From positions 1 through 64,000 of IMG/VR virus record IMGVR_UViG_3300009506_000015: a stretch of DNA of 64,000 nt. One strand, written 5' to 3'. The DNA comes from a virus. Shown here one piece after another: positions 12,316 through 27,061 of the stretch (positions are counted from its first letter, which is position 1; each line of letters begins with the position of its first letter). The translations under genes and the position numbers were made by a program. The notes below the pieces were generated by a model, which was given only the letters and a program-made list of their open reading frames with translations, did no database searches and was not told where the DNA came from.

Positions 12316-12490
12316 ATTCCTCCCAGTCTTCGGTGTACATCCAGTATTCTACGTCTGTGAGTAGAGCGTTGTCCTGGGGCTTATCGACTATGCGGATAAG
12401 TATATATTTCCTTAGAGTCGATATCCACAGGACAACGCCCAAGATGCGCGGGTCTTTCCGGTTGTGTACTTTAGACCCTACGTGTATCAT
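12308..12490 (-). CDS. small unknown protein at head of the replication operon
   Basis: 60 aa, basic N-terminus and aromatic/acidic C-terminus. Its ATG at 12490 overlaps the E1-like stop codon (TAATG) and also overlaps the -10 box of the promoter at 12489-12517. The full frame can therefore only be read from mRNA coming through the upstream ubiquitin-like operon, or from a later start. Its end overlaps the next gene. Coding status is moderately supported by spacing. Confidence 0.5.
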   Translation of the reverse strand: MIHVGSKVHNRKDPRILGVVLWISTLRKYILIRIVDKPQDNALLTDVEYWMYTEDWEEYA

Positions 12491-12517
12491 TATAACATAT
12501 CCGGCGGAATCTGTAAA
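12489..12517 (-). promoter_or_regulatory. phage promoter P1 (TTTACA-N17-TATAAT), replication operon
   Basis: Read on the minus strand: -35 TTTACA, 17-nt spacer GATTCCGCCGGATATGT, -10 TATAAT with extended TGT. One of seven near-identical promoters with GCC in the spacer. It lies inside the last codons of the E1-like gene. Confidence 0.8.
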
Positions 12518-13179
12518 TCAATTTGTGCTAGCCACCCTAGCATGTCAAACTTGATATGATACGGAACGGGTTCACCGTTGATCGCGGCGACAACTTCTCG
12601 CGCCGCCAGCGATGCTAGGAACATCCCGTTGTACGCCACCGAGCGCATCGAGCATGGAATCTCCATAGGGTGGTCGTCCAGTATCGAGCTTGTGTATGCC
12701 TCTGACGTGAGCGTTGGTGGCGTGACATGATACAGTTCCACCACGTTGCTGCCCATGCGGCAGTCAAAGTAGTATTCCCACCAGTTCGATGCCGCCAGCG
12801 TCTTGGCTATCGCTTCGCGTGATTCGTGAGAGTCCACGGCGGATACGACTATGACATCATCGTTGAAGTTGTAGAACTCTTCTTCGGTCCCGTTCCACCT
12901 GAACGCGCCCGGTACTATGGATACGTCGTCCACGAACTCGAGCACGTTCTTGACGATGGCTGTGACCTTCTTGTCGGGAACATCACTTGGCTTGTAGAAC
13001 TGTGGCTCGATGTTCTCCGGCGACACTATGTCGTCGTCGTACACGTTGATCGTGCCAACGCCCAGCTTGGCGAGCAGGTACACCAGATTGCTGCCAACGG
13101 CACCAGAGCCAACCACGACTACAATCCTGCTTTTCAGGATATCGTGATCGACAAGATCGTCCGAGCGTGACCTATCCAT
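12490..13179 (-). CDS. ThiF/MoeB-family E1-like ubiquitin-activating enzyme
   Basis: 229 aa. The Rossmann nucleotide loop is GSGAVGS (24-30, in VVVVGSGAVGSNLVYLLAKLG). The E1 signature region reads YDDDIVSPENIEPQ (47-60), where typical family members have D-x-D-x-V-x-x-x-N-x-x-R-Q; Pro59 replaces the usual Arg. Asp116 (SAVDSHESR) fits the Mg-ATP aspartate, and Cys176 in IPCSMRS is the best candidate catalytic cysteine. It would adenylate the C-terminus of the ubiquitin-like protein encoded three genes upstream and pass it as a thioester. The start overlaps the JAMM stop. Short single-domain form, as in prokaryotic Ubl systems. Confidence 0.85.
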   Translation of the reverse strand: MDRSRSDDLVDHDILKSRIVVVVGSGAVGSNLVYLLAKLGVGTINVYDDDIVSPENIEPQFYKPSDVPDKKVTAIVKNVLEFVDDVSIVPGAFRWNGTEEEFYNFNDDVIVVSAVDSHESREAIAKTLAASNWWEYYFDCRMGSNVVELYHVTPPTLTSEAYTSSILDDHPMEIPCSMRSVAYNGMFLASLAAREVVAAINGEPVPYHIKFDMLGWLAQIDLQIPPDML

Positions 13180-14116
13180 ACGCCGACTCCATCACGCTGT
13201 AGAGCGCGTCATAGCACTTGTCGCACAGCGCCAGGTCGGGCATACCGTCTATACCTGGCACGATGTTGACATGCCCCTCGATATCACCGGCGCAGGTGAA
13301 GCACTTCATTTCACCTACGTGCGCACACTCCAGGCAGATAGGCGGGGTCGCGCTGTCCAGACAGTTCTCGCACACTTCGGCAGCACACAGGCCGCATGTA
13401 CGCAGTCTGCCAACTTCGTGGCACAGCTCGCACACACCGTAGTTCATTACTCTATCGTAGCCATGCAGGTGTGGCCGATGCACCGAGCCGTTCTTCGGAG
13501 ACTTGAACTTGTCATAAAGTGGCTGGTTGACTCCGTACTCCAGCGTGACATTCAAGTCTTCGTAGCTGCCCAGCGTGTCGCGCCTGGCGATCACGATATC
13601 GGACCCGAACTCGATAGACACCGTGGTTGCGTCTTCAGACTGCTGCATCTTCAGCGCGTCTTCTATGGCGTCCAGGTCAGTACCGGACCAGAACGCCGAC
13701 ATGGGATGTCTGTGGACCCAGGCGAAGCGATACTCGTCCAGGTCGTAGCCATCATCCATAGCGAGCATGACTGCCTGAGCGTAGTGCATAGCAGTAAGCT
13801 CCGTCGTGGCATGGGAGTCGTTTTCGTGTTCGCTGAGTACGTACAGCCTAACGACGTGCATATCGCCACTTTCGGTTTCCCTATACAGCCCGTAACCGGA
13901 CCACTCCAGGGATGTCGCATGGTTCAGGACCAGCGCTCGAACAGTCACTTCGCTGTCTAGGTGGATAGTATGGATGGTTGGCAACTGGTCCTTACGTGGC
14001 TTGAGCGGTAGTTGGTGGAATTGTTTCACTACGGGTGGCGTAGAACTTTGCCTGTACCCCTGCGTCACGCTCCGGTTCCTATGCTTCTTCTTGAACAGTT
14101 TATCCATCAGTCGCAT
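13172..14116 (-). CDS. JAMM/MPN (JAB) deubiquitinase-like protease with C-terminal cross-brace zinc domain
   Basis: 314 aa. The JAMM centre comprises Glu71 (EWSGYG), His135-x-His137-Pro (VHRHP), Ser144 and Asp147 (FWSGTD). There are six residues between His137 and Ser144 where seven is usual. A basic leader (1-45) precedes it. Residues 229-264 carry eight cysteines as C-x2-C-x8-C-x2-C-x4-C-x2-C-x8-C-x2-C, a RING/FYVE-like cross-brace spacing, and four more follow (C272, C275, C298, C301). Expected role: processing the ubiquitin-like C-terminus or removing it from targets; the zinc part could bind targets or the E2. The start at 14116 has GAGGTG before it. Confidence 0.85.
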   Translation of the reverse strand: MRLMDKLFKKKHRNRSVTQGYRQSSTPPVVKQFHQLPLKPRKDQLPTIHTIHLDSEVTVRALVLNHATSLEWSGYGLYRETESGDMHVVRLYVLSEHENDSHATTELTAMHYAQAVMLAMDDGYDLDEYRFAWVHRHPMSAFWSGTDLDAIEDALKMQQSEDATTVSIEFGSDIVIARRDTLGSYEDLNVTLEYGVNQPLYDKFKSPKNGSVHRPHLHGYDRVMNYGVCELCHEVGRLRTCGLCAAEVCENCLDSATPPICLECAHVGEMKCFTCAGDIEGHVNIVPGIDGMPDLALCDKCYDALYSVMESAYG

Positions 14117-14765
14117 GTATCACCTCGTGCAGTCTACACCTGCCACCCATATGGCAGTAGCTACTCGGGCAGGTACGCGGGATGTGGACGTTACAGTAGT
14201 AGCCGAACGTCCTGGCGCACCTGTACCCGATCTCCTCGGACAAACATGATGGGCATAGCTTACGCCCACAGAACTCGCAATGATGGTACGAGCGCGGGGC
14301 GTACCATTCGCCCTTGTGCGATGGGCACTCCTCCGCGTCCGGGTTATACTTTGAGTTGGTCCACCAGCCTTCGTATGCCCCAGGAATGTAGATACTGCGC
14401 AGGAAATCGACGGACATGCCGTACAAAGCGACTATGTCGCCCTCTCTTAGCAGCACGTCGAACCCGTCTTTCGTGTTGCCCATGCATGGGTGGCCCATAT
14501 GCACGTGCGGGTGCGGCTGGCCGCGCATGACCACGCCGCCCTTGACCCTCCTGCCGGTGAACTCAAGTTCGTACTTGCCGAAGTTAAAGTCATCCAGCTC
14601 CGGCGCTATGATATCGTCGGTAGTAACAATGGCGCTGCCTACCTTTACCTTCCACACCCTGCCATCCCATTCGGTTTCATAGTATCCGCCAGAACCTCTG
14701 GGCGCTCTGCTCATAGCTTTCTTGAACACGCCCGTGTATATCAGATTTGGTACGTCTGTTATCAT
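14100..14765 (-). CDS. E2-like (UBC-fold) conjugating enzyme with C-terminal zinc domain
   Basis: 221 aa from the ATG at 14765, preceded by GGAGAG; a TTG 18 nt upstream lacks a ribosome site. The hallmark is HPHVHMGHPCMG (85-96), matching the prokaryotic E2 pattern HPH-x(n)-G-x-x-C-(L/M)-G, with Cys94 as the predicted thioester cysteine; beta strands precede it (KYELEFTGRRVKGGVVMRG). Residues 147-210 are a Cys/His-rich zinc module (CEFCGRKLCPSCL) resembling that of the adjacent JAMM protein. Predicted to accept the ubiquitin-like protein from the E1-like enzyme. Without the genomic context the E2 call would be weaker. Confidence 0.75.
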   Translation of the reverse strand: MITDVPNLIYTGVFKKAMSRAPRGSGGYYETEWDGRVWKVKVGSAIVTTDDIIAPELDDFNFGKYELEFTGRRVKGGVVMRGQPHPHVHMGHPCMGNTKDGFDVLLREGDIVALYGMSVDFLRSIYIPGAYEGWWTNSKYNPDAEECPSHKGEWYAPRSYHHCEFCGRKLCPSCLSEEIGYRCARTFGYYCNVHIPRTCPSSYCHMGGRCRLHEVIHATDG

Positions 14766-14774
14766 TATGCTCTC

Positions 14775-14813
14775 CAAACACAAAAGCCGGGGGGACGTGG
14801 CAATCCCCCCGGC
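14775..14813 (-). terminator. Rho-independent terminator between Ubl and E2-like genes
   Basis: Minus strand: stem GCCGGGGGGA / TCCCCCCGGC (10 bp, 8-nt loop) followed by TTTTGTGTTT. It lies in the 63-nt gap after the Ubl stop, so it should reduce read-through into E2, JAMM and E1 and give excess Ubl. Confidence 0.75.
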
Positions 14814-14828
14814 ACAAGATGTAGACCG

Positions 14829-15188
14829 TCAAGCTCCCTTGACGGTGCCACTAAAGACGAGAACCTGACCGGGAGCTACGTGATCCATTTCCTCTGCGTA
14901 GCTGCCGTTCATGATCACCTGCATTGCCTCGGCGTCTTCCCTGCCCATAGATACGAGCCGCTTGCGCAGCGTCCCTACGGTTTCATCGTGGGCGACCTCC
15001 ACGGTCATCGGTCTGCCGTTGTGGAACATCACCCTCACCGAGCCAGCAGGGACCGTCAGGTCTACCATTTCTGGCTCATCATCAAAGTCATCCTCGATCT
15101 CGTCGTCGTCATCGAAGATGGCGTAGATTTCTTCGTCATCGAAATCATCGTCTTCCTCGAGTGGCGGCCTCTCATTCCAGTCTGTCAC
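14829..15188 (-). CDS. ubiquitin-like protein with acidic N-terminal tail
   Basis: 119 aa, GTG start at 15188 with GGAGGTGA six bases upstream. Residues 1-42 are strongly acidic and probably disordered. Residues 43-119 read as a beta-grasp: two strands (VDLTVPAGSVRVMF, NGRPMTVEVAHDETV), helix TLRKRLVSMGREDAEAMQ, strand VIMNGSY, then EEMDHVAPGQVLVFSGTVKGA, like ubiquitin's last strand. It ends VKGA rather than GG, so either Gly118 after removal of Ala119 or a non-canonical end is used. It is the first gene after promoter P2, ahead of E2, JAMM and E1. Confidence 0.75.
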   Translation of the reverse strand: MTDWNERPPLEEDDDFDDEEIYAIFDDDDEIEDDFDDEPEMVDLTVPAGSVRVMFHNGRPMTVEVAHDETVGTLRKRLVSMGREDAEAMQVIMNGSYAEEMDHVAPGQVLVFSGTVKGA

Positions 15189-15221: not shown

Positions 15222-15250
15222 ATTATAACATTTGCGGCTGGAAGTGTAAA
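15222..15250 (-). promoter_or_regulatory. phage promoter P2, ubiquitin-like operon
   Basis: -35 TTTACA, spacer CTTCCAGCCGCAAATGT (17), extended -10 TGT-TATAAT on the minus strand. It starts exactly where the upstream gene stops. Confidence 0.85.
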
Positions 15251-15831: not shown

Positions 15832-16503
15832 TTACCCCCAGACAAACCACCGGGTAACGATGGGTGGTTCTTGCGGTTCGGCGCAACCGATAGCCGCCAG
15901 GACGTAGAACTTTTTGTCATCAGTGCGGGCGAGCCGCTGCGCCTCGCGCATTGCTGCGCCTGCGCTATCATGCCTGACAGTGGACGCCAGCGTCCTTTGG
16001 TCACTGGATACCACGTAGAACTCCGGCTTGCCTATTTGGCCTATTTGGTCGGCCAGATATCGCACTATCTTGTCGTCCAGGCGGTCGTATGCAGGTGGCG
16101 GCGGTACAACCTCTGCCCAGTCATAGTTGTTGACCATTTCCGACCGGGAAATGGTCGTCCCGGTCACGGTATCGACAAGCCCGCTGACCGAGTTGTAGTA
16201 TACCAGCGTGGCTTTCCTGTGGTCGCCAGTGTTCTTGGCGATCCAGTAGTATTCGCCCATCACAGGCGGGTGGCCGCTGTGCCACCCGTAGTTGTGCCGA
16301 TACTTGAACTTCGGTTCGTCCATGTCTGGCGTGAGCGGACCCTTGTGCATCATGTCGGGGACCAGCTCGGGTGCTAGCCGCGCACCCGATGGGCCGCGCA
16401 GCATATGGTCGTCGTTGGTGTACCAATACACGGCGTCTTCCGTGCCTGGACGCCGTATCCAGTAGAACCCGCTCTCCACGGGTTCGCCTCTAATCCATTC
16501 CAT
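15832..16503 (-). CDS. unknown protein with duplicated GxYWI module
   Basis: 223 aa. Two related segments, SGFYWIRRPGTEDAVYW near the N-terminus and MGEYYWIAKNTGDHRKATLVYY near residue 83, resemble GYYWIRYG and GYYWVKAS in the next two genes upstream. It therefore belongs to a local family of small beta modules of the kind often found in phage accessory genes. Function unknown; the C-terminal third is a charged helix. Confidence 0.6.
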   Translation of the reverse strand: MEWIRGEPVESGFYWIRRPGTEDAVYWYTNDDHMLRGPSGARLAPELVPDMMHKGPLTPDMDEPKFKYRHNYGWHSGHPPVMGEYYWIAKNTGDHRKATLVYYNSVSGLVDTVTGTTISRSEMVNNYDWAEVVPPPPAYDRLDDKIVRYLADQIGQIGKPEFYVVSSDQRTLASTVRHDSAGAAMREAQRLARTDDKKFYVLAAIGCAEPQEPPIVTRWFVWG

Positions 16504-16505
16504 GT

Positions 16506-16784
16506 TTATCCTCCGTTTTCGTAGATATCCAGCACCGAATATTCCTTGCGCACTGGTTCTGTATCAGCCAGCGTCCTATCCGGTTCTGGGATTGGCCCCA
16601 TCCACTCGAAGTGCTCGGAGCCTAGGAAGTCAACAACGCCATCGTAAGAACGGTCATCGCCATGTATCCAGATATTCCCCTGAGACAGCAGGACAAGCTC
16701 CCGCATGTCCAGATGGTTCCCATACCGTATCCAGTAGTAGCCTTCCTGGTCGATTGATACTAGCTTCCCGTCATTCCAGACCAT
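16506..16784 (-). CDS. unknown protein with GYYWIR module
   Basis: 92 aa from the ATG at 16784, which overlaps the upstream stop in GGAATGA; longer in-frame starts lie inside that gene. One copy of the local module (QEGYYWIRYGNHLDMRELVLL), then FEWMGPIPEPD, a motif like the GPL-x-PD segments in its two neighbours. Clearly paralogous to both neighbours; function unknown. Confidence 0.55.
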   Translation of the reverse strand: MVWNDGKLVSIDQEGYYWIRYGNHLDMRELVLLSQGNIWIHGDDRSYDGVVDFLGSEHFEWMGPIPEPDRTLADTEPVRKEYSVLDIYENGG

Positions 16785-17484
16785 GCTGCACCAGCTTGTC
16801 ATACAGCCTGGCGGCGTACTCCCTGGCCTCGTCGCGTTCCTTCCCGACCTGAGCGTGCCAGCTAGCCCTGTCGCGCAGGGTGTTTCGTGCGACATTCAGC
16901 TCTTGTTCCAGCCGCTCCACGTCTAGGACGAGTAAGTGCTGTGCGTGTTCCGCCATATTACGGGCAGCGTCCAGTTCCAGAACGCGCCGTTCCAGAAAGG
17001 ATACACGTCCAGTTGCGCCTTCCGCCCTGGATTCTGCATCCCGTATGGCCATGTCGCTCGCGTTCCGAGCATCCTGAAGTTCCATATCGTGCTGAGCGTT
17101 GACGTGTTCCAGTTCTTGGCTGAGCATGACAGCCGTTGCCGACAGTTCGCGGATAGTATCCGTGGCTTCTATGGCGAGTTGCTGGTACGTGGCGCACACC
17201 GCACGCCACGTGTTCTGTCCGTGGTAGAACTTTCGCGCCCACTCACGAGCTTCGCGCACGTCCGCTACGAGAGCATCTTCACGTGTCACGTAGTCCGGCA
17301 CGAGCGGCCCTGCATACTCTAGGCCAAGGAAATACGAGTCCACGTCATATGTCTCCGGCACGTGTGCGGCATAGTACGATATCACGTTGTCCCCAACCAC
17401 TCTGACGAGCCAGGTGCCGAACAGCGACGCCTTAACCCAATAGTAGCCGTCGAAGTCAGGTGTCCCTTGTTGCCATTCAGTCAT
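16771..17484 (-). CDS. GYYWVK-module protein with long coiled coil
   Basis: 237 aa. Residues 1-65 carry the local module (DFDGYYWVKASLFGTWLVRVV, LEYAGPLVPDY). Residues about 70-237 are a continuous charged, Ala/Glu/Arg-rich heptad-like coiled coil (LEHVNAQHDMELQDARNAS, LERRVLELDAARNMAEHAQ). Probably a structural or scaffolding oligomer. It overlaps the sigma-like stop. Confidence 0.6.
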   Translation of the reverse strand: MTEWQQGTPDFDGYYWVKASLFGTWLVRVVGDNVISYYAAHVPETYDVDSYFLGLEYAGPLVPDYVTREDALVADVREAREWARKFYHGQNTWRAVCATYQQLAIEATDTIRELSATAVMLSQELEHVNAQHDMELQDARNASDMAIRDAESRAEGATGRVSFLERRVLELDAARNMAEHAQHLLVLDVERLEQELNVARNTLRDRASWHAQVGKERDEAREYAARLYDKLVQHGLE

Positions 17485-18092
17485 GTTTCCTCCTCTCTCG
17501 CGGAGTCTATTGCACTCCGCGCTTTTTCCCTAACCGACTTGATTATCCTGCTGGCGTACAGGGTATTGGTAGACAGAATCGGGGCGAGTTTCCTACTGGA
17601 AACGGCCCCGTCCAGTGCTACCATGAATTTCAGACATGTGCGTTCGCGTTCGTCAAGGTTGCCCCACAGGTCGTTGAGCCACTGTGGCGTCTCATCGTCC
17701 AGGTGGTACTCGTCCGTGACCGCGTTGCGTTCCTCCATGTCCGATATCACCCCGTTGTCATCTCTGGGCATCTCCAGTTCGTGGTACAGGTGGCGGTTCT
17801 GTCTGTGTACGGCGTGCTTGGTACTGTCCTTGCCAGCTTCGTCCGCCATGGACAGTATGATGCCCTTGCCAATACCTATAACCCATGTCGGGAACGCCGA
17901 CAATCGTGGGTTATAGTCTTCCTTGCGTAGCATGGCTGTTTCCCAGGCGGCCTGTACAACGTCGTCTGAAGCCCAGCCCATGCCGCGTATGTACGCATAC
18001 TTGCGGATAGATTGTTCGATATCTGCGCCAAATACACGTACATATTCTGCGAACCAGTCAATCTCAATCCGTTGCTTCCTTGCTCTCGTCAT
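17481..18092 (-). CDS. sigma-factor-like protein
   Basis: 203 aa from the ATG at 18092 with GGAGGCGA upstream. Residues about 15-85 resemble sigma region 2 (YAYIRGMGWASDDVVQAAWETAML, AFPTWVIGIGKGIIL). Residues about 145-195 resemble region 4, with a helix-turn-helix (LDERERTCLKFMVALDGAVS, LAPILSTNTLYASRIIKSVREKA). Size fits ECF-type factors. It could redirect RNA polymerase to phage genes. Divergent, so the call is moderate; it might instead be a sigma-derived regulator. Confidence 0.55.
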   Translation of the reverse strand: MTRARKQRIEIDWFAEYVRVFGADIEQSIRKYAYIRGMGWASDDVVQAAWETAMLRKEDYNPRLSAFPTWVIGIGKGIILSMADEAGKDSTKHAVHRQNRHLYHELEMPRDDNGVISDMEERNAVTDEYHLDDETPQWLNDLWGNLDERERTCLKFMVALDGAVSSRKLAPILSTNTLYASRIIKSVREKARSAIDSAREEET

Positions 18093-18333
18093 TGCCAGTC
18101 GCCTCCGCCTCAAGGCCATACCGGGACAGAAAGTCCTCGTAGCTATCGGGGCTAGCGCCCCGATTCATTGCTTCGCAATGAACGAGTACATAGGCCCGGA
18201 ATGGACTAAGTCCTTGCAGGTCAGCGACGCCACAGACAGCGTGTGTAGCATCCATGTGTCTGATGTATGCACGCCGTTCCTGTTGGTGCCACGCGACCTG
18301 AATTTCTGTTCTGCGTCTAGCCCAACGGTTCAC
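18064..18333 (-). CDS. small unknown protein upstream of sigma-like gene
   Basis: 89 aa, GTG start at 18333 with AAAGGGGGTGA upstream. Basic N-terminus (RWARRRTEIQVAWHQQERRAYI), acidic end. It overlaps the sigma-like gene by 29 nt and is the first gene after the long non-coding RNA region. Possibly a partner or inhibitor of the sigma-like protein (inference from coupling only). Confidence 0.5.
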   Translation of the reverse strand: MNRWARRRTEIQVAWHQQERRAYIRHMDATHAVCGVADLQGLSPFRAYVLVHCEAMNRGASPDSYEDFLSRYGLEAEATGNDESKEATD

Positions 18334-20049: not shown

Positions 20050-20080
20050 AGCTGCCTCCTTTTCTGATTTATCACGCCAG

Positions 20081-20153
20081 TTGCGCGGGCGGGATTCGAA
20101 CCCGCATATCCAGGCTCATGAAGCCTGTGCCTTACCAGTCGAGCCACCGCGCA
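20081..20153 (-). tRNA. tRNA with CAU anticodon (Met or Ile2)
   Basis: Cloverleaf: acceptor TGCGCGG/CCGCGCA, anticodon arm CAGGC-TTCATGA-GCCTG (anticodon CAT, U33 and G37), T-arm GCGGG-TTCGAAT-CCCGC, discriminator A. The 3' CCA is not encoded. It could be elongator Met or a lysidine-modified Ile tRNA. Confidence 0.9.
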
Positions 20154-20167
20154 GGTTGTAGGCCCAC

Positions 20168-20350
20168 TTACCTACGTGTTCGCCCCCTAAGTTTATAGGG
20201 GTCTTTCCCATTCACATCGAACGGGTCTTTCTGCCCCAACCGCGACCTGAACGGTTGCGTGAGACCGGCGGATCGCTTTTTCCGCGCACGCCGCTTCTCA
20301 GCGCCCCACATGTAAGGCCACGGCCCACGGTATTTGTGTGGGATAGCCAT
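20168..20350 (-). CDS. small basic protein between tRNAs
   Basis: 60 aa with AGGAGGGG seven bases before the ATG. Strongly basic and aromatic at the start (HKYRGPWPYMWGAEKRRARK), rich in Arg/Lys throughout, no structured motif. Possible nucleic-acid binder. The strong ribosome site supports it as real. Confidence 0.6.
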   Translation of the reverse strand: MAIPHKYRGPWPYMWGAEKRRARKKRSAGLTQPFRSRLGQKDPFDVNGKDPYKLRGRTRR

Positions 20351-20375
20351 ATTACCCCTCCTAATAACGTGATAA

Positions 20376-20448
20376 TGGGCGCGGCTGGAATCGAACCAGC
20401 GACCTGAACCTTATAAGAGCCCTGCTCTCACCGCTGAGCTACGCGCCC
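20376..20448 (-). tRNA. tRNA-Ile (UAU anticodon)
   Basis: Acceptor GGGCGCG/CGCGCCC, D-arm with AGCTCAGCGGTGAGAGC, anticodon loop CTTATAA (anticodon TAT), T-arm GCTGG-TTCGATT-CCAGC, discriminator A, no encoded CCA. It reads AUA, a codon used often in this window's genes. Confidence 0.9.
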
Positions 20449-20449
20449 G

Positions 20450-20497
20450 ATGCAAAACAAAAGGAACGCTAGGGCTGCCCACAAGAGCAGCCCTAGC
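20450..20497 (-). terminator. Rho-independent terminator before tRNA-Ile
   Basis: Minus strand: 11-bp stem GCTAGGGCTGC / GCAGCCCTAGC with 8-nt loop, followed by a T-rich run (GTTCCTTTTGTTTT). It closes the operon from the phosphoesterase/SSB side, after the zinc-ribbon gene. Confidence 0.8.
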
Positions 20498-20507
20498 ATA
20501 AGGACAA

Positions 20508-20681
20508 TCATTCTTCTGCCTTCACCGTGACTGGTACGGCTACCATCCGCTGGACTTCGTTGCCACACACAGTACACCGCGCCTTGCCGCCCTTGCACAG
20601 ATTGAACACGCGTTGTTTGTGACCGTACTTCTTGTCCTGCCACTCGTGTTCGCACCTGCACGTCATGATGACACTGGGCAT
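20508..20681 (-). CDS. small zinc-ribbon protein
   Basis: 57 aa with GTAGGAGG before the ATG. MTCRCEHEWQDKKYGHKQRV with CK and CTVCG further on: four to five cysteines forming a compact zinc knuckle. This type of small phage protein (C-x-C-x(1)-HEFQDK-x-YG ... C-x-x-CG) recurs in many phages with unknown role. Located just before the terminator. Confidence 0.7.
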   Translation of the reverse strand: MPSVIMTCRCEHEWQDKKYGHKQRVFNLCKGGKARCTVCGNEVQRMVAVPVTVKAEE

Positions 20682-20690
20682 TGTCGCCTC

Positions 20691-21011
20691 CTACGCCAGC
20701 ATCTTGACTGGCTTGTCGAATACCAGCTCCCAGAGGATTTCCGCTTGCTGCGTGAACCCGTAGACCATCTGGTACTCTTCCGCCTGGTCCTCGTAGTTGG
20801 TCAACCTGCTGATCTTGCAGGTCACTGAACCGCACCAACCCTGGTCGCTGATCCGTTCGAGCATGTACGCCGGGTACTCATCTGGGTCTGTCCACTGACT
20901 GTTACCATCGGTGTCGTACCTGGCCACGTGGTCCTCCTCGATGCGCTCCCGGTAGGCGTTCAGCTCTTCTTCGCTTTCCACGACGATCAACCGTTCCGTA
21001 TCCGAACTCAT
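20691..21011 (-). CDS. unknown protein, paralogue family A
   Basis: 106 aa from the ATG at 21011 with GGGGGTGA upstream. Shares with its two neighbours RLIVVESEEELNAYRERI, a central YPAYMLERI and a C-terminal MVYGFTQQAEI. Acidic. Function unknown. Confidence 0.6.
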   Translation of the reverse strand: MSSDTERLIVVESEEELNAYRERIEEDHVARYDTDGNSQWTDPDEYPAYMLERISDQGWCGSVTCKISRLTNYEDQAEEYQMVYGFTQQAEILWELVFDKPVKMLA

Positions 21012-21016
21012 ACCGA

Positions 21017-21370
21017 TCACCCCCTTTCCGTTTCGAGTGGTTCTATTTTAGCTTCGAGATATACCGCCGCCGACTCCGGCACTCCATGTTCCTGTATGTA
21101 TTCCGATGCCAATATGGCGTAATCTCGGAGCTGTTCTATCCTGACGAAAGCTTTTTGCCATACAACCTCGCCGCCTATTATCGAGCCTTTCTTTTCCAGG
21201 TAATATACTGGAAACCTGGATGGTCTTCCTGCGAAGATCGCCCCTTTGAACGAGATGTCACTGCCAACCTTGTAGTCGTCCAAGCTCGAAGCGCCTACCT
21301 CTTCGAGCCAGTAATTGACATATGCGTCCAGTTCTTCAGCGGTGTTCACTCTTACTAGCCTCGTCTTCAT
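21017..21370 (-). CDS. unknown protein, paralogue family A
   Basis: 117 aa. LVRVNTAEELDAYVNYWLEE, then FPVYYLEKKGSIIGGEVVW and QEHGVPESAAVYLEAKIEPL align with the 195-aa and 106-aa neighbours. Directly downstream of ssb in the same operon. Function unknown. Confidence 0.6.
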   Translation of the reverse strand: MKTRLVRVNTAEELDAYVNYWLEEVGASSLDDYKVGSDISFKGAIFAGRPSRFPVYYLEKKGSIIGGEVVWQKAFVRIEQLRDYAILASEYIQEHGVPESAAVYLEAKIEPLETERG

Positions 21371-21381
21371 CCTGGCCCCCG

Positions 21382-21792
21382 CTAGAATATCAGCGTTTCC
21401 TGTTCCTGGCTTTCCTCCTTCTGCTTTCTGTCAGATATGACAGTTACGTTGAGGGCGGTCAGGTCGTAGCTAGACCTGCACCCACTCGTGTCCTGCCACA
21501 CGTGAGGAGATTGCTCGCCGTTTTCGGCGTCGCCGCCGATCTCGCCTTCGACAAGGACCACGCTGCCTTTGGCTACGCGATCATACGCATACTGCGCACG
21601 GTCGCCCCAACAGGTAACGCGCCACCAAGTGGTTAGCGCGTATCCCTGCCCAGCTTCCTTCCAGCCCTTAATCTGCTTCGAGCTGTACTTGCTGGTCGCT
21701 ACGCTGAACGTCGTCAGCGCCGTTCCACTGTTGGTGTACTTCATTTCCGGTTCGCCACCAACGCGCCCTACGATTGTTACTTTGTTAAACAT
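21382..21792 (-). CDS. ssb: single-stranded DNA-binding protein
   Basis: 136 aa OB-fold protein. MFNKVTIVGRVGGEPEMKYT, GTALTTFSVATSKY, TTWWRVTCWGDRAQYAYDRV and KGSVVLVEGEIGG follow the bacterial/phage SSB pattern. The C-terminus is acidic and ends ETLIF, a variant of the usual DDDIPF-type tip that recruits partner proteins. It coats single strands during phage replication and probably cooperates with the Rad52-like annealer. The start overlaps the upstream small ORF. Confidence 0.9.
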   Translation of the reverse strand: MFNKVTIVGRVGGEPEMKYTNSGTALTTFSVATSKYSSKQIKGWKEAGQGYALTTWWRVTCWGDRAQYAYDRVAKGSVVLVEGEIGGDAENGEQSPHVWQDTSGCRSSYDLTALNVTVISDRKQKEESQEQETLIF

Positions 21793-21919
21793 ACCATTCT
21801 CCGTTTAGACATATAGCGGAGGGCAGGTCAGAGCGAGTGAGCCTGCCCTCCGCATCAAGAAAGGAGGTGTCCTCTAGGGACCATTGCCTGGGGAGACGCG
21901 CACTAACATTGTACCACAT
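21785..21919 (-). CDS. possible small leader protein upstream of ssb
   Basis: 44 aa from the ATG at 21919, which has GGGGGG six bases upstream; its stop overlaps the ssb start. It is the first frame after promoter P4, but it contains a large inverted repeat (21816-21853), so the region may instead be a structured leader. Composition is plausible (SLEDTSFLDAEGRLTRSDLP). Confidence 0.35.
   Translation of the reverse strand: MWYNVSARLPRQWSLEDTSFLDAEGRLTRSDLPSAICLNGEWYV
21816..21853 (-). repeat. 12-bp stem inverted repeat in ssb leader
   Basis: Arms GCGGAGGGCAGG (21816-21827) and CCTGCCCTCCGC (21842-21853) with a 14-nt loop, about 25 nt before the ssb start. No U-tract. Could regulate ssb translation. 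Confidence 0.5.
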
Positions 21920-22001
21920 ATTCATCCCCCCAGGCGTATGCAAGGAGTTGGCCGGGCTATGTACGGCAGCTACCAGATTTCCGTACACCTTCCGACACCC
22001 T

Positions 22002-22030
22002 ATTATAACATTTCTGGCGCGTTCTGTAAA
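22002..22030 (-). promoter_or_regulatory. phage promoter P4, ssb operon
   Basis: -35 TTTACA, spacer GAACGCGCCAGAAATGT (17), extended -10 TATAAT on the minus strand. Confidence 0.85.
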
Positions 22031-22045
22031 TGGTGGCGTGCGCGC

Positions 22046-22861
22046 TCACAACGTGCGCAATGACACGTCTATGTCCGGCTGCCCATCGTGGCGGCGCGTT
22101 ATGTCGATCCTGGCGTATCCCGCGACTGGCGTCGTACCGCCCCTGTTTTCCAGGTACGTATGTTTCCCGGTGATAGGCATGGATATCACGCCCCACCGCA
22201 TCTGCGGTTCTTCGTAGCCAGCGCGGTTCAGGACATCCACACTTTCAGGGAATATCATGCCCCTGTGTGTGTGGGCGACAAGCACCACATCTGCGTTCTT
22301 CTTCCAGGTAAGCCGTTGCAGTTTCAACGCATCCCCGCCTCTAAGTTCACCTCCGCCCCACCCATGCGTCACGTAGATATCTACGGCATACCTGTATTTC
22401 CCGTTTTTATTCCTCAGCCGTACTTTAAGCCAGCCGGATTGCAGGGTAGAACCAGTATACGGAGCGGACATTCGCTCCGCAATCACCGCCGCGGCGTCGA
22501 TGTGATACATCTTTGCGGCTTTAGACTCGTGGTTTCCAGTAACCATCATGGCCCATTTACCTGCCGTCGGTGCCCATATCTTGCAGAATCTAAGGGCCTG
22601 TATGTAGAATATGTTATGTATCAGTTCGGGGACTATGGGGGTTGACAGTTCGTGAGGGTCGAACCTTCTGTCACTTGGGGCTATCGCTTCTATATAGTCA
22701 CCTGCACCGATGATCATGCCGTATTCGTCCTCTGCCACTATCTTCGCGAGTCTTCCTTGCTTGTCTTCGCACGATGCCACAGAACCCACGTGCGTGTCGT
22801 TTACAGCGTAAAGTCGCAGGACTGGCTTGTCCCAGTCTATGATGACGGCTTTCCTCTTCAA
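22046..22861 (-). CDS. calcineurin-like metallophosphoesterase
   Basis: 271 aa, TTG start at 22861 with GGAGGG upstream. All five metal motifs are visible: D-x-H (Asp22, His24 in NDTHVG), GDYIE (54-58), GNHE (109-112), THG (His166) and a final AHTHRG (His197, His199). It hydrolyses phosphodiester or phosphomonoester bonds using two metals; the substrate (DNA, nucleotide or signalling molecule) is not evident. Phage relatives often sit near DNA metabolism genes, as here. A terminator lies in its leader. Confidence 0.85.
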   Translation of the reverse strand: MKRKAVIIDWDKPVLRLYAVNDTHVGSVASCEDKQGRLAKIVAEDEYGMIIGAGDYIEAIAPSDRRFDPHELSTPIVPELIHNIFYIQALRFCKIWAPTAGKWAMMVTGNHESKAAKMYHIDAAAVIAERMSAPYTGSTLQSGWLKVRLRNKNGKYRYAVDIYVTHGWGGGELRGGDALKLQRLTWKKNADVVLVAHTHRGMIFPESVDVLNRAGYEEPQMRWGVISMPITGKHTYLENRGGTTPVAGYARIDITRRHDGQPDIDVSLRTL

Positions 22862-22869
22862 TGTTCCCT

Positions 22870-22908
22870 CCTATAAAAATAGGGCATACCGACGTGGTAT
22901 GCCCTATT
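22870..22908 (-). terminator. Rho-independent terminator, partly in the phosphoesterase leader
   Basis: 13-bp stem AATAGGGCATACC / GGTATGCCCTATT, 5-nt loop, followed on the minus strand by TTTTTATAGG. It ends the upstream three-gene operon; the phosphoesterase then depends on read-through, as no promoter is seen between. Confidence 0.8.
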
Positions 22909-22930
22909 CTACAGGATTACGGGATATCTG

Positions 22931-23215
22931 TCAATCTTTTCCTACGGAACTCAGGACCGACTCCATGAGTTCAAGAGCCTGGTCGAACCAGGGATTGGCG
23001 AAGCGGTCGATGCGCTCTTTCGGCGGCAGGGACTTCCTATCCCTGAACTTGATGGGCGCGACAGCCTGTGCGGCGCTTATGAACCCGCCCTTGTCGAGGA
23101 TCATCGTCGCCTTGCGGTCCCACGACTTGTTAGGGTCTTGGTAGATGTCCTTGAACACCTGAGCGAGAGCGCCTATCATGTGGGCTTGAATGAGGGCGAT
23201 GTCGTCGTCCATCAT
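22931..23215 (-). CDS. unknown helical protein
   Basis: 94 aa, ATG at 23215 overlapping the previous stop (ATGA). Helical (DDIALIQAHMIGALAQVFKDIY) with a basic middle (KFRDRKSLPPKERIDRF). Third gene of an operon with the next two. Function unknown. Confidence 0.6.
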   Translation of the reverse strand: MMDDDIALIQAHMIGALAQVFKDIYQDPNKSWDRKATMILDKGGFISAAQAVAPIKFRDRKSLPPKERIDRFANPWFDQALELMESVLSSVGKD

Positions 23216-23700
23216 TCCAGCTTCCTGTAGCCGCACGCCGGGCAGTCGTTGACGTGTTCTTCGTAGTCCTCGCCGTACTCTTCCACTACTTCGTCGTAGG
23301 GTGGCAGGTCGGCCCCGCACGTGCCGCACACGCGTGGCTGGATGCGCGTATCGAGTCCCATCTCGCGCACGACCCAGGCCACGAACATGGCTTGTGCCAG
23401 GGATGTGATGACGTTGGACAGCACGTAGTCGTCGTCGTTGATGACGGCGTCATGTACCATCGTGGCCATTTCCACGGTCAAGACGGCTTTCAGGACGGCG
23501 AAATTCCCGAATCCTTCCGCTTCTGCCAGGAACGCGATAGCCTTGCGGGTATCCTTCCTGGTCATCAATTCGGCGGCCAGCGGGTACAGTTCCTCGTCAA
23601 GGAATAGCTTCTGAAGCTCGTCCGACGCGATCAGGAAGTCGTGTTCTTTCATGGTTTCCACGAGTTCGTGGAGCTGTTCTGCGAGTTCTGAACTACGCAT
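23212..23700 (-). CDS. unknown helical protein with C-terminal zinc ribbon
   Basis: 162 aa. Residues 1-115 are helical (LDEELYPLAAELM, FAVLKAVLTVEMATMVHDAV); residues 124-158 carry CGTCG and CPACG, a two-knuckle zinc ribbon. The LYPLAAELM segment resembles LYPIYDELF in the following gene, suggesting an ancient duplication. Function unknown. Confidence 0.6.
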   Translation of the reverse strand: MRSSELAEQLHELVETMKEHDFLIASDELQKLFLDEELYPLAAELMTRKDTRKAIAFLAEAEGFGNFAVLKAVLTVEMATMVHDAVINDDDYVLSNVITSLAQAMFVAWVVREMGLDTRIQPRVCGTCGADLPPYDEVVEEYGEDYEEHVNDCPACGYRKLE

Positions 23701-24073
23701 CGCCCATACCCTCCTGCCACAGCTTGATGCACAGACACGTCGCGGCGCGCTCTACAAACACGGTACACTGGATAGCGTTGGAGAACTCCGCGCTTTGCTG
23801 TAGCACGGCCAGAGCAGCGGCCTGCGCCGGTAAAGGCCCGAACAGCGCCTTCACAACGGTCCGGTTCTGGTACGCCGACGTCGTGGAGAGCGGCCTTGCC
23901 ATCAGGCTAATGACGCCGTCTTGGCTAAACAGCTCGTCGTAGATCGGGTACAGAGATTGGTCCAGAAGTATGTCGAGCGACTTCACCAGATCGGGGTCCG
24001 AAGCTATGGATTCCTGTTCCATGAGGTAGTCCCACACGGTCTTGAGCTGGTGCTTCTCTTTCTTTGGTTCCAC
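23693..24073 (-). CDS. unknown helical protein
   Basis: 126 aa, helical, possible paralogue of the adjacent zinc-ribbon protein (LDQSLYPIYDELF; TVVKALFGPLPAQAAALAVL). First gene of the operon, with GGAGGTGAG upstream of the start (GTG). Function unknown. Confidence 0.55.
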   Translation of the reverse strand: MEPKKEKHQLKTVWDYLMEQESIASDPDLVKSLDILLDQSLYPIYDELFSQDGVISLMARPLSTTSAYQNRTVVKALFGPLPAQAAALAVLQQSAEFSNAIQCTVFVERAATCLCIKLWQEGMGDA

Positions 24074-24163
24074 TAGATACTCACCTCCAAGTATATTACA
24101 CGTTCACAACCTGCGGGCCGAGTCCCTGGGTTTGTGCAGGTTTGACGTGCCTGTCTCGGTCGT

Positions 24164-24185
24164 GCCCCCTGCACGTGCAGGGGGC
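24164..24185. terminator. 22-nt perfect GC-rich palindrome downstream of SNF2-like gene
   Basis: Arms GCCCCCTGCAC and complement without a loop. T-rich sequence (TTTGTGCTACTTTTT) lies on its right side, which suits plus-strand transcription; all local genes are minus-strand and there it lacks a U-tract. Placed 14 nt after the helicase stop. Confidence 0.45.
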
Positions 24186-24198
24186 TTTGTGCTACTTT

Positions 24199-26091
24199 TT
24201 ATATCAGGTCCAGTATGTGCCTGACGCTGGTCACGACGAACAATTCCGCCATGTCCTGCTCTCCGCCGTCGATTGCCTCGTCAAAGGCCGACTGCTTCGA
24301 TCTAAGCACCTTAGACATCGTTTCATCTATTGTGCCTCGCAGCGCGGGGAATAGCGCCACCACCTGGCCTTTTTGTCCGAACCTCCAAATTCTTCCCAGG
24401 GCTTGGATCACGTCCTTGGGCAGCCACGGTAGGTTTAGGAACACGCCATAGACCGTGTCTGATTCCCCGACGCCACCCTGGAGGTTCATGCCTTCGAACG
24501 CGGCGGGTGACAGCAGCAGGACTTTGATATCCTGCCTGGTGTTCCACGCCTGTTGGAGGATGAACCTGCTCTCCTTCGGCACGCTGGAGTCGATGTACGA
24601 TATGTAGCCTTCCGGGTGCTTGGTGATTCCTTGCGGGACTAGCTGTTTGTTCCTGACGACCAGGATGTCCAGTTTGTTCTCCTTGCACAGTCGCCTGATG
24701 AGCGGTCGTAAAGCGCCTGTCCAGTCCGAGAACACAACCAGCTTATCGCCGTTACCGATAATCTGGTCGTCAATGAAATTCACCAGCCAATCTTGCTTGG
24801 CACCCTTGTCCGAGATAGGAATACTGAGGTCCGGCGCAAACTCCGGCTTGTGTCCGGCGATGGCGGCGGAGAATTCCTTCGGCGTCATGGTGGTCACTCG
24901 CCTGAAGTACATCAACTGCGCGAGTATGGAACGAATCCTTGTCGGTTCGTACCCATCTTCGCCGTCGTACATCATCAGGAACCCTTCTCGGAGACGCTTG
25001 TACAGCGTCTTCTGGTCCGGGGTTGGGTCCAGCATGACATGTTCGTACTGCGGCTTCGGCGCTTTGATAACTTCCGCACGACGCCAGCGAATCATGCCAT
25101 ACCGCCTCAGTCTGTCGTTCAGTTCTGGCATATTCCTCTGGTTTGCACCGGAGACATAGCCCCACGAGCTGAACGAACAATACTTGAGCCTGAATTGGTC
25201 GAACGACCCCCACGTGGGCGGCCTGGAGCGGTAGCGTATGGTCAGGGAGTCGACCTTGTCCCTAAAGGGCTTCTGGCCAACCTTGCCCCTATCATACAGC
25301 TTGCACGTCTTCTTTCTGGACATCCAGTGTTCACACCCGTTGCACCCATCGCCGCGCCCTATCAGGTTTCGCTGCTTCCACGATTCCAGCGGGCAGATGC
25401 CGTGGATGGGTTCCGGTGGCTTACCCTTGTACGTCTTATCATACGTGTCGGCGTTGTCGAGCCATGCCACGACGCCCCACAACGAATCAGGTTTGTTCGA
25501 TAGTGGCGTGCCTGTCAGGGCGACATTGAACCCGGCGGTGATAGAACGCACGGCGACGGAACGTTTGCGCTCTGACCACTTGATGTAGTGGGCTTCGTCG
25601 CAGACTACGGCTAAAAAGAACGGGTGGTGCCCATCCTTATCTAGCCACTGGAATGTCTGCTGGTGAATCCGAACAAGGTCGTAGTTGACAATCACGAACT
25701 TGGGCTTCAGCAGTTTCATGAATTCCAGTTGTTGGTCCCGTTCGCCAGGGTTGCCGTCGATCACCCAGATATCGGACGGCCTGGGGTTCGCCCATGTCTT
25801 TATCTCGTCCAACCAGTTGTACTTGACGCTGGCTGGCACGATATACAGAACTGGCGATTCTGCGCGTTTGTCCTTCTTCTTGCGCAGATACTCGCGCACC
25901 ATGTTGATGTAGACGATGGTACTGGGCGTCTTGCCTGTCCCTACGTCTGCGAACAGCGGCAGCTTGAACCCGTTAAGGTCTTTGCCGCTGGCCTCATAGT
26001 ACGCTGCCCCTCGCTCCAGGGCGGCTACTAGGTCGCGGCGCTGGTACTCGCCACGACCGTCACCGACCAGCTTCTTGAGTATATCGGTCAT
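24199..26091 (-). CDS. SNF2/RapA-like superfamily 2 helicase-ATPase
   Basis: 630 aa from the ATG at 26091 with GGAGGTGG upstream. Motif I is DVGTGKT (49-55), motif II DEAH (165-168), motif III LTGTP (192-196), and the helicase C-terminal lobe includes KLVVFSDWTGALRPLI and motif VI QALGRIWRFGQKG. A Cys-rich insertion (CPLESW...CNGCEHW...CKLYDRG, about residues 240-275) likely binds zinc. Members translocate on double-stranded DNA; in phages they assist replication, recombination or transcription. Stands alone between two hairpins. Confidence 0.85.
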   Translation of the reverse strand: MTDILKKLVGDGRGEYQRRDLVAALERGAAYYEASGKDLNGFKLPLFADVGTGKTPSTIVYINMVREYLRKKKDKRAESPVLYIVPASVKYNWLDEIKTWANPRPSDIWVIDGNPGERDQQLEFMKLLKPKFVIVNYDLVRIHQQTFQWLDKDGHHPFFLAVVCDEAHYIKWSERKRSVAVRSITAGFNVALTGTPLSNKPDSLWGVVAWLDNADTYDKTYKGKPPEPIHGICPLESWKQRNLIGRGDGCNGCEHWMSRKKTCKLYDRGKVGQKPFRDKVDSLTIRYRSRPPTWGSFDQFRLKYCSFSSWGYVSGANQRNMPELNDRLRRYGMIRWRRAEVIKAPKPQYEHVMLDPTPDQKTLYKRLREGFLMMYDGEDGYEPTRIRSILAQLMYFRRVTTMTPKEFSAAIAGHKPEFAPDLSIPISDKGAKQDWLVNFIDDQIIGNGDKLVVFSDWTGALRPLIRRLCKENKLDILVVRNKQLVPQGITKHPEGYISYIDSSVPKESRFILQQAWNTRQDIKVLLLSPAAFEGMNLQGGVGESDTVYGVFLNLPWLPKDVIQALGRIWRFGQKGQVVALFPALRGTIDETMSKVLRSKQSAFDEAIDGGEQDMAELFVVTSVRHILDLI

Positions 26092-26163
26092 AGTCCACCT
26101 CCTTGATATTCGACCGCTCACCTTGCCCTTTGATGCTATCTCAGGGCAAAGTCGGTTGTCGAA

Positions 26164-26403
26164 TCAGTCCATGATTGCCGCTATGACCAGGGCAACCACG
26201 GATACGATGGCGAGTATCGTGAATATGACTATCGTGGCAGAAACGACCAGTCCGGCGTATATCCACACTGGACTGATCACCCATATCCACTCCCAGTCTA
26301 TCACGTTAGTCAATTTGAGTCCTACGAACAGCACTGTCAGGAGCACGGCCAACAACCCGCCGCACCCTATGGTCCCAGTGGTTGTGGTTCGCTCGTTAGA
26401 CAC
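26164..26403 (-). CDS. small two-pass membrane protein
   Basis: 79 aa. Two hydrophobic segments (GGLLAVLLTVLFVGLKL and GLVVSATIVIFTILAIVSVV) are separated by NVIDWEWIWVISPVWIYA, a pattern common in small phage membrane proteins that carry a VIDWxWxWVxxPxWI core. Function unknown; not an obvious holin because the lysis genes are elsewhere. Confidence 0.65.
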   Translation of the reverse strand: MSNERTTTTGTIGCGGLLAVLLTVLFVGLKLTNVIDWEWIWVISPVWIYAGLVVSATIVIFTILAIVSVVALVIAAIMD

Positions 26404-26599
26404 GACGAGACCTGCCTTTCAGGTGTCGGAACCCGTTGAGCATATCGACTGCGCCGTGTTCCCGCGCCCACTCGGTTGCCCGGTCCCACCCGTTGGAACG
26501 GATCACGCGTTTCAGTTTGTTGCGGATATCATGCCGTTCCAGCCAGTACCGCTTCTTCGTTGGCTTCTTCTTGAACCGTCCGAACTGTTTAGGTGCCAT
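26396..26599 (-). CDS. small basic unknown protein
   Basis: 67 aa from the ATG at 26599 (an in-frame TTG two codons earlier is less likely). Very basic (KQFGRFKKKPTKKRYWLERH), helical. Overlaps both neighbours. Possibly nucleic-acid binding. Confidence 0.55.
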   Translation of the reverse strand: MAPKQFGRFKKKPTKKRYWLERHDIRNKLKRVIRSNGWDRATEWAREHGAVDMLNGFRHLKGRSRRV

Positions 26600-26963
26600 C
26601 GTCAATCGCCTCCAGGTTTAGCTCTCCATTTTCAATGGCCTGAATAATGGAGGCCATGAGCGCCCTGCGCCGGTCCCAGGTCTCGTCGTTCAGGTGCCTG
26701 TAGACGCCTGACGCGCCGTCCTGCAACACGCACACGAGCGCATTGCCTTGCTCTACCTTGTAGAACGTGGCTTCGTAACTGCCAGTGAGCCGCACGAACT
26801 GACCGTTTTCCAGGTGGCCCAGTTCGAACCACGCGAGTTCGGCCCAGTATGCAGCCTTCTTGTTGCCCAGCGGGACACCCGCCGGTGGTGCTGCGCGTTC
26901 TACAAGGCTCCACTTCGCACCGTTGAAGACTGTGCTGTTGAAGTAGCCTTGTACTGTATCCAT
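26589..26963 (-). CDS. unknown protein
   Basis: 124 aa from the ATG at 26963 with AGGAGGTG upstream. Beta-rich middle (FVRLTGSYEATFYKVEQGN, ALVCVLQDGASGVYRHL) and helical acidic end. First gene after tRNA-Gln. No family recognised. Confidence 0.6.
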   Translation of the reverse strand: MDTVQGYFNSTVFNGAKWSLVERAAPPAGVPLGNKKAAYWAELAWFELGHLENGQFVRLTGSYEATFYKVEQGNALVCVLQDGASGVYRHLNDETWDRRRALMASIIQAIENGELNLEAIDDGT

Positions 26964-26988
26964 ACTCACCTCCTGATTATGGGATAAG

Positions 26989-27061
26989 CGGGTCGGGCGG
27001 GATTCGAACCCGCAACCTGCGGTTCCAAGGACCGCTGCTCTACCATTTGAGCTACCGACCT
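26989..27061 (-). tRNA. tRNA-Gln (UUG anticodon) with odd features
   Basis: D-arm AGCTC-AAATGGTA-GAGC, anticodon arm GCGGT-CCTTGGA-ACCGC (anticodon TTG; position 33 is C, not the near-universal U), T-arm GCGGG-TTCGAAT-CCCGC. Acceptor AGGTCGG/CCGACCC leaves an A1-C72 mismatch, discriminator G. Reading the loop one base later would give TGG (Pro), with a poorer stem. Confidence 0.75.

Follow-up and report, generated by a model that had tools for sequence, protein, structure and literature searches.

We analyzed a stretch of 64,000 nucleotides (positions 1 to 64,000 of the 75,428-bp IMG/VR virus record IMGVR_UViG_3300009506_000015; hereafter the window) and found four consecutive minus-strand genes that probably encode a phage pathway for conjugating and deconjugating a ubiquitin-like protein (Ubl), transcribed with the replication module (probability about 0.75). 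The source is recognizable as a tailed phage from TerL, tail proteins and DnaB; its TerL has only distant kin, with two weak matches in INPHARED. All four open reading frames (ORFs) were confirmed at 12490-15188 in the order Ubl-E2-JAMM-E1, as a preliminary description of this DNA had proposed:

14829-15188, minus strand: Ubl, 119 aa; GTG start and ribosome-binding site
14100-14765, minus strand: E2, 221 aa; HPHVHMGHPCMG ubiquitin-conjugating (UBC)-like core and C-terminal Cys/His-rich putative zinc domain
13172-14116, minus strand: JAMM/JAB metalloprotease, 314 aa; EWSG...HRHPMSAFWSGTD and C-terminal Cys-rich putative zinc domain
12490-13179, minus strand: E1-like adenylating enzyme, 229 aa; single ThiF domain

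The reading frames of E2 and JAMM share 17 nt and those of JAMM and E1 share 8 nt. It is very likely that the four-gene set is a conjugation cascade, because the genes and their order are conserved, the family profiles match proteins of Ubl pathways, and the catalytic residues are invariant. A chance origin of the arrangement is excluded, since more than 100 other phage loci retain both the gene order and the catalytic residues.

Conservation of the cassette among phages

Simple similarity searches of IMG/VR and INPHARED with the window E1, E2 and JAMM returned no close relatives, and the Ubl, E2 and JAMM individually had no significant relevant match in Pfam, PHROG or NCBIfam, so that family-level evidence was required for naming these three proteins. 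We searched IMG/VR with a degenerate DNA pattern for HPH[VIM]xxGxxC[LMIF]G and recovered 39 stretches, ∼33 of which encode E2-like proteins, most of them followed by JAMM and then E1. A JAMM DNA pattern with the spacing of the window had no IMG/VR match and a single chance genome match (L044) because the relatives have one residue more, and the corrected pattern succeeded. With two further motif scans there were at least 248 loci altogether, counts that are lower bounds rather than estimates of prevalence, some loci sharing one contig. Iterated profiles identified E2-JAMM-E1 in order on one strand at 124 loci or more; the remaining loci hold mostly partial sets, many of them probably truncated where the contig or locus ends, or carrying an E2 unmatched by the profile. 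Of the 135 loci open to examination, 111 have a Ubl-like ORF immediately upstream of E2. In this survey of synteny the related phages kept the genes together rather than separately, with the order Ubl-E2-JAMM-E1 at every locus where all four were identified (90/90).

Seventy lineages remained after selection at 55% E1 identity, and among them the window forms a long branch with poorly supported placement. Searches with the window E1 led to Flavobacterium phages and to Dulem virus 41, which is an uncultured virome genome, and searches with related sequences led to crAss001, DAC15, Kolpuevirus and PhiCrAssBcn isolates. The four-gene order is the same in the cultured gut phage crAss001, in the Flavobacterium phage Fpv3 and in Dulem virus 41. 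In crAss001 (L251) the Ubl is gp79, annotated as hypothetical, which reads ...EKKIKSG and then continues into a C-terminal extension; gp78, also annotated as hypothetical, is the E2; gp77, annotated as a metalloprotease, is the JAMM (EWSG...HSHNNMATFFSGTD); and gp76, annotated as thiamine biosynthesis, is the E1 (ETICSYKQTTF). The ThiF genes of Flavobacterium phages (L043) are likewise cassette E1 genes labelled thiamine biosynthesis.

Pairwise distances of the four proteins correlate with one another (Mantel r 0.71-0.95, against permutation maxima of ≤0.23). Median dN/dS was 0.12 for Ubl, 0.16 for E1, 0.18 for JAMM and 0.38 for E2, the last value possibly inflated through ORF ends and poorly aligned regions. 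Many divergent phages thus conserve the four proteins as a unit, with purifying selection acting on them. The E2 profile had no match in 395 bacterial genomes of one phylum with at most 8 candidates scored in each, a search that rare chromosomal copies could escape; as controls, the same profile found 16 of 17 phage records, and Prok-JAB was found in 156 of the same 395 genomes. We found no description of the cassette in the literature searched, which covered neither preprints nor most subscription journals, so that an earlier description is possible; the cassette goes unmentioned in papers on crAss001 and crAss-like phages.

The four proteins

The window Ubl consists of an acidic N-terminal tail (∼residues 8-40), a beta-grasp domain (49-113) and a C-terminus reading ...TVKG-A. 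The beta-grasp assignment of the preliminary description was borne out by AlphaFold2, which gave a confident model (predicted local distance difference test, pLDDT, 87-96 in each ten-residue block from residue 51 to 110), and by Foldseek, which with this model returned ubiquitin, Caldiarchaeum subterraneum Ub and ISG15 (best 6e-5). When compared with PDB sequences, the profile of the phage Ubl family matched PF1061 (annotated as hypothetical) and SAMP2 at 8e-10, and also MoaD, ThiS, TtuB and C. subterraneum ubiquitin. A C-terminal Gly followed by 0-5 further residues is present in 110 of 111 phage Ubls. The window protein has a single Ubl domain, apparently like most of its relatives. At locus L219 (10546-11196, minus strand), one ORF encodes three head-to-tail Ubls, each ending ...LIVLVKQIKGN with KG/N junctions, and stands upstream of an intact E2-JAMM-E1. 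This triple Ubl is, as judged from its repeats, a phage polyubiquitin-like precursor, and it gives the clearest hint that the JAMM may serve as maturation protease.

The acidic tail of the window Ubl (∼40 residues, EEDDDFDDEEIYAIFDDDDEIEDDFDDEPE; 15050-15188, minus strand) is unusual and is not present in the aligned relatives. A Pfam MIS13 match of this protein (0.00066, below the cut-off) was rejected, the acidic tail being probably responsible for it.

Residues H85, P86, H87, G91, C94 and G96 of the E2 are invariant across 52 phage E2s, and Cys94 is presumed to be catalytic. The window E2 model has a core with pLDDT ∼90 over most of residues 31-120, in which a meander and two helices accompany the HPH...C loop. 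Motif, model and family profile together place an HP[NH]-x-G-x-x-C loop behind a beta meander with helices next, as in UBC/E2 proteins, and the family profile matched almost exclusively ubiquitin-conjugating enzymes among PDB sequences (best 9.6e-5). The 221-aa protein therefore appears UBC-related by profile and motif, in line with its earlier description as E2-like. At least two CxxC pairs follow the core in 25 of 134 E2s, including that of the window, and the C-terminal region of the window JAMM has six such pairs. Matches of these E2 and JAMM zinc tails to FYVE, TRIM and RNF213 (0.07-0.5) were too weak for naming a fold and were set aside. The zinc domains may have an E3-like or docking role, which we offer as an idea and not as a result. 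One locus (L196, 3921-6055, plus strand) has, ahead of JAMM and E1, a tandem pair of E2-like genes that each encode HPH...C and a Cys-rich tail.

The active-site residues of the window JAMM are E71, H135, H137, S144 and D147, and each of the 114 relatives that were recovered with nothing but the E2 motif has all five. Its family profile matched Rpn11 among PDB sequences (4.8e-14), together with CSN5, AMSH and archaeal JAMM1, and it matched the Rpn11 homologue of C. subterraneum at 1.8e-12; Pfam Prok-JAB recognized 23 of 31 relatives. For the E1, the Pfam ThiF match (2.4e-21) makes the assignment certain. Most relatives align with it across ∼200-275 aa, and its invariant Cys176, which sits in CSMR (CTxK in many relatives), is conserved in 181 of 181 alignable sequences. 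The E1 family profile matched Uba1 (7.8e-19), MoeB, UBA5 and the NEDD8 and SUMO E1s among PDB sequences. Both the protease and the ThiF-type enzyme of the preliminary description stand. A profile of the C-terminal half of the E1 did not align with canonical E1, and for this reason we do not claim homology of the conserved cysteine to the catalytic Cys of Uba1/UBA2.

Transcription signals

Three elements on the minus strand bear on expression of the cassette:

15222-15250, minus strand: promoter-like site upstream of Ubl, TTTACA-17-TATAAT with TG (extended -10); 11/12 consensus match
14786-14813, minus strand: terminator- or attenuator-like hairpin in the Ubl/E2 gap, GCCGGGGGGA...TCCCCCCGGC TTTTGTGTTT; GC-rich with a T tract
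12489-12517, minus strand: second, almost identical promoter-like site at the E1 end, starting the next unit

Because promoter-like sites precede Ubl and stand at the E1 end, the cassette looks like a separate transcription unit bracketed by two near-identical sites. The hairpin at the Ubl/E2 boundary had a z of -3.1 in the window, -6.0 in crAss001 and -5.2 in Fpv3, and terminator-like hairpins occur in this gap in 49 of 97 loci versus 16 expected from mononucleotide shuffles. The preliminary description had placed all four genes under one phage promoter. A near-consensus site does lie upstream of Ubl, but the strong terminator-like hairpin that follows the Ubl gene probably makes transcription of the four genes from it unequal, and the likely effect would be more tag than enzyme.

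Genomic context

The window cassette has DnaB, a D12 adenine methylase (Dam) and Rad52 as neighbors, and in crAss001 it lies between DnaB/Sak4/primase and UDG/resolvase/exonuclease/ribonucleotide reductase (RNR), in keeping with the reported location among replication genes. Recurrent neighbors in 97 dereplicated loci were an AAA_24 (Sak4-like) ATPase (31), DnaB helicase (28), an unnamed ∼206-aa protein (30), an HNH/endonuclease VII-like protein (15) and Gp157 (11). This position is circumstantial evidence for a role in early infection and DNA metabolism.

Elsewhere in the window, a probable phage sigma factor is encoded at 17481-18119, minus strand (Sigma70_r2, 0.00013, just under the Pfam cut-off), and three adjacent ORFs at 15832-17484, minus strand, have a short W..G.P....G.YWI/V-like motif in common and resemble paralogues. 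There is also an SNF2-type helicase gene at 24199-26121, minus strand, and tRNA genes for Met, Ile and Gln, three in all, occur within 20080-27061.

Comparison with known systems

The cassette has the general features of prokaryotic Ubl cassettes, with the four activities together and the E1 Cys, the E2 Cys, the JAMM E-H-H-S-D and the Ubl C-terminal Gly intact. Bacterial ISG15-like (BIL) operons have the order Ubl-E2-JAMM-E1. The phage cassette resembles them (BilABCD) in uniting Ubl, E2, JAMM and E1 in one operon, with a presumed conjugation cascade, and the preliminary description drew this parallel. Equivalence to BIL is not supported, however. The E1 of BIL, BilD, has an inactive and an active adenylation domain (IAD and AAD) and a Cys domain (PMC11354881), whereas the phage E1, 229 aa in the window, is one ThiF domain without this architecture. 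The phage E2 has HPHxxxGxxC and lacks the CEHH motif of BilB: after C94 the window E2 reads MGNTKDGFDVLL, with no E-x-H, and the family consensus has HPH ahead of the Cys and no CEHH. BilA has two Ubl domains, while the phage Ubl usually has one (three in L219), and the phage cassette is found in phages, in the replication region. No window protein was named BIL among the matches listed for the PADLOC models, and the crAss001 E1 matched the PADLOC BilD model weakly (2.5e-5).

PRTRC-type clusters, the other parallel drawn at the outset, share the Ubl, E2, JAB and E1 activities. The window E1 partly matches PRTRC_ThiF at 51 bits, under the cut-off of 144.75, but the window proteins did not match the PRTRC E2, JAB and Ubl models, and no other PRTRC genes were seen near the cassette. 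We take row 6d of Iyer et al. to be a PRTRC-type operon. The E2 of that row has no histidine before the cysteine (Iyer et al. 2006, PMC1779556), unlike the 52 phage E2s with their invariant H85 and H87. By the features compared, the cassette would function like BIL, PRTRC and other bacterial Ubl cassettes while belonging to neither BIL nor PRTRC.

Other systems share parts of the set. Lambda tail protein I and K of caudate phages form a Ubl and JAB-NlpC pair (PMC1779556), and so resemble the cassette in being a phage-encoded Ubl and JAB pair, but they are tail-assembly genes without E1 or E2, whereas here a complete E1-E2 cascade lies within a replication module. Cap2 (an E1-E2 fusion) and Cap3 (a JAB) of the cyclic-oligonucleotide-based anti-phage signaling system (CBASS) likewise provide E1, E2 and JAMM activities, and the window E1 matches the CBASS E1-E2 models at 1.7e-11. 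Unlike type II CBASS, no locus has an E1-E2 fusion, a separate Ubl is encoded here, and no cyclase was seen adjoining the cassette. The Ubl model and profile match CsUb of C. subterraneum and the JAMM profile its Rpn11 homologue, but that system is cellular and archaeal, not phage-borne.

Proposed pathway and alternatives

From the families of the proteins, their conserved active sites and the order of the genes we propose the following pathway. The JAMM would cut the Ubl precursor just behind the conserved C-terminal Gly (KG/A here; KSG/AMSR... in crAss001). The small E1 would then adenylate the Ubl glycine with ATP and load the Ubl on its invariant cysteine, from which it would be handed to the E2, at the cysteine of the HPHxxxGxxC loop. 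The E2 would attach it to lysines of target proteins, with the fused zinc domain possibly acting as an E3-like surface for substrates or docking, and the JAMM would also take the Ubl off its targets. A terminator between Ubl and E2 would keep the tag in excess of the enzymes. Judged by genomic position, the likeliest targets might be phage or host proteins of DNA replication and recombination or of host takeover, a suggestion that we make tentatively.

Some observations weigh against this pathway. The fold matches of the window E2 model are all weak (RWD 0.03, Ubc3 0.33), and the UBC assignment consequently rests on the family profile and the motif. A separate E3 gene was not identified. E1 and Ubl on their own are also compatible with sulfur transfer, and the cassette could then be a sulfur-carrier pathway in which a ThiS/MoaD/TtuB-like Ubl, its E1 activator and a JAMM release protease supply sulfur for modification of tRNA, DNA or a cofactor. 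The matches of the Ubl profile to PF1061/SAMP2, ThiS, TtuB and MoaD fit such a pathway, as do the single-domain E1 of ThiF/MoeB size and the name "thiamine biosynthesis protein" that it bears in phage records. We nevertheless consider it quite improbable. Sulfur transfer does not need an E2, yet a conserved one accompanies JAMM and E1 in at least 124 loci and keeps its catalytic motif invariant, and the recurrent neighbors include no sulfurtransferase, rhodanese or modification enzyme. No genes for sulfur handling or for a target enzyme were found among the window genes scanned either, distant genes lying outside the scan.

The cassette might instead be a BIL-like defense carried against co-infecting phages, tagging the virion proteins of incoming competitors. 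Phages often carry anti-competitor genes, and the gene order is that of BIL operons. The four activities are shared with BIL as well (PMC11354881). What makes this unlikely is that the cassette sits in the replication core of distantly related phages and not in a moron or defense region, and the PADLOC comparison described above gave no BIL name among the window matches listed and a weak BilD match for crAss001. Nor do we think it at all likely that the cassette is a counter-defense in which the JAMM strips BIL or CBASS conjugates of the host and the other parts are decoys. Hosts do encode Ubl-type defenses (PMC10097602; PMC10286901), and the JAMM active site is fully conserved, but the E1, the E2 and the Ubl C-terminus are conserved just as strictly, which a JAMM-only function would not need. 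That the phage itself uses Ubl conjugation, as first put forward in the preliminary description, is well supported by the conservation of the unit, its catalytic residues and purifying selection, and conjugation with deconjugation remains the reading that we favor. The purposes suggested there, namely tagging host proteins, maturing the virion or countering a host defense, are candidates.

Implications

We give even odds to the broader view that many tailed-phage lineages have a complete Ubl system of their own, as a core early module modifying replication or host proteins. If the proposed pathway is correct, phages do not merely face Ubl defenses, and many would operate their own conjugation system. 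On the broader view, Ubl signaling would be widespread not only in cells but also in viruses, and this would extend to polyUbl precursors and to E2s bearing RING/FYVE-like zinc domains. Gp76-79 of crAss001 and the Flavobacterium phage genes, four conserved unknowns, would gain a testable function, and these small four-protein systems would be suited to reconstitution. A very diverse family of E2, JAMM, E1 and Ubl proteins would also bear on the origin of ubiquitin systems.

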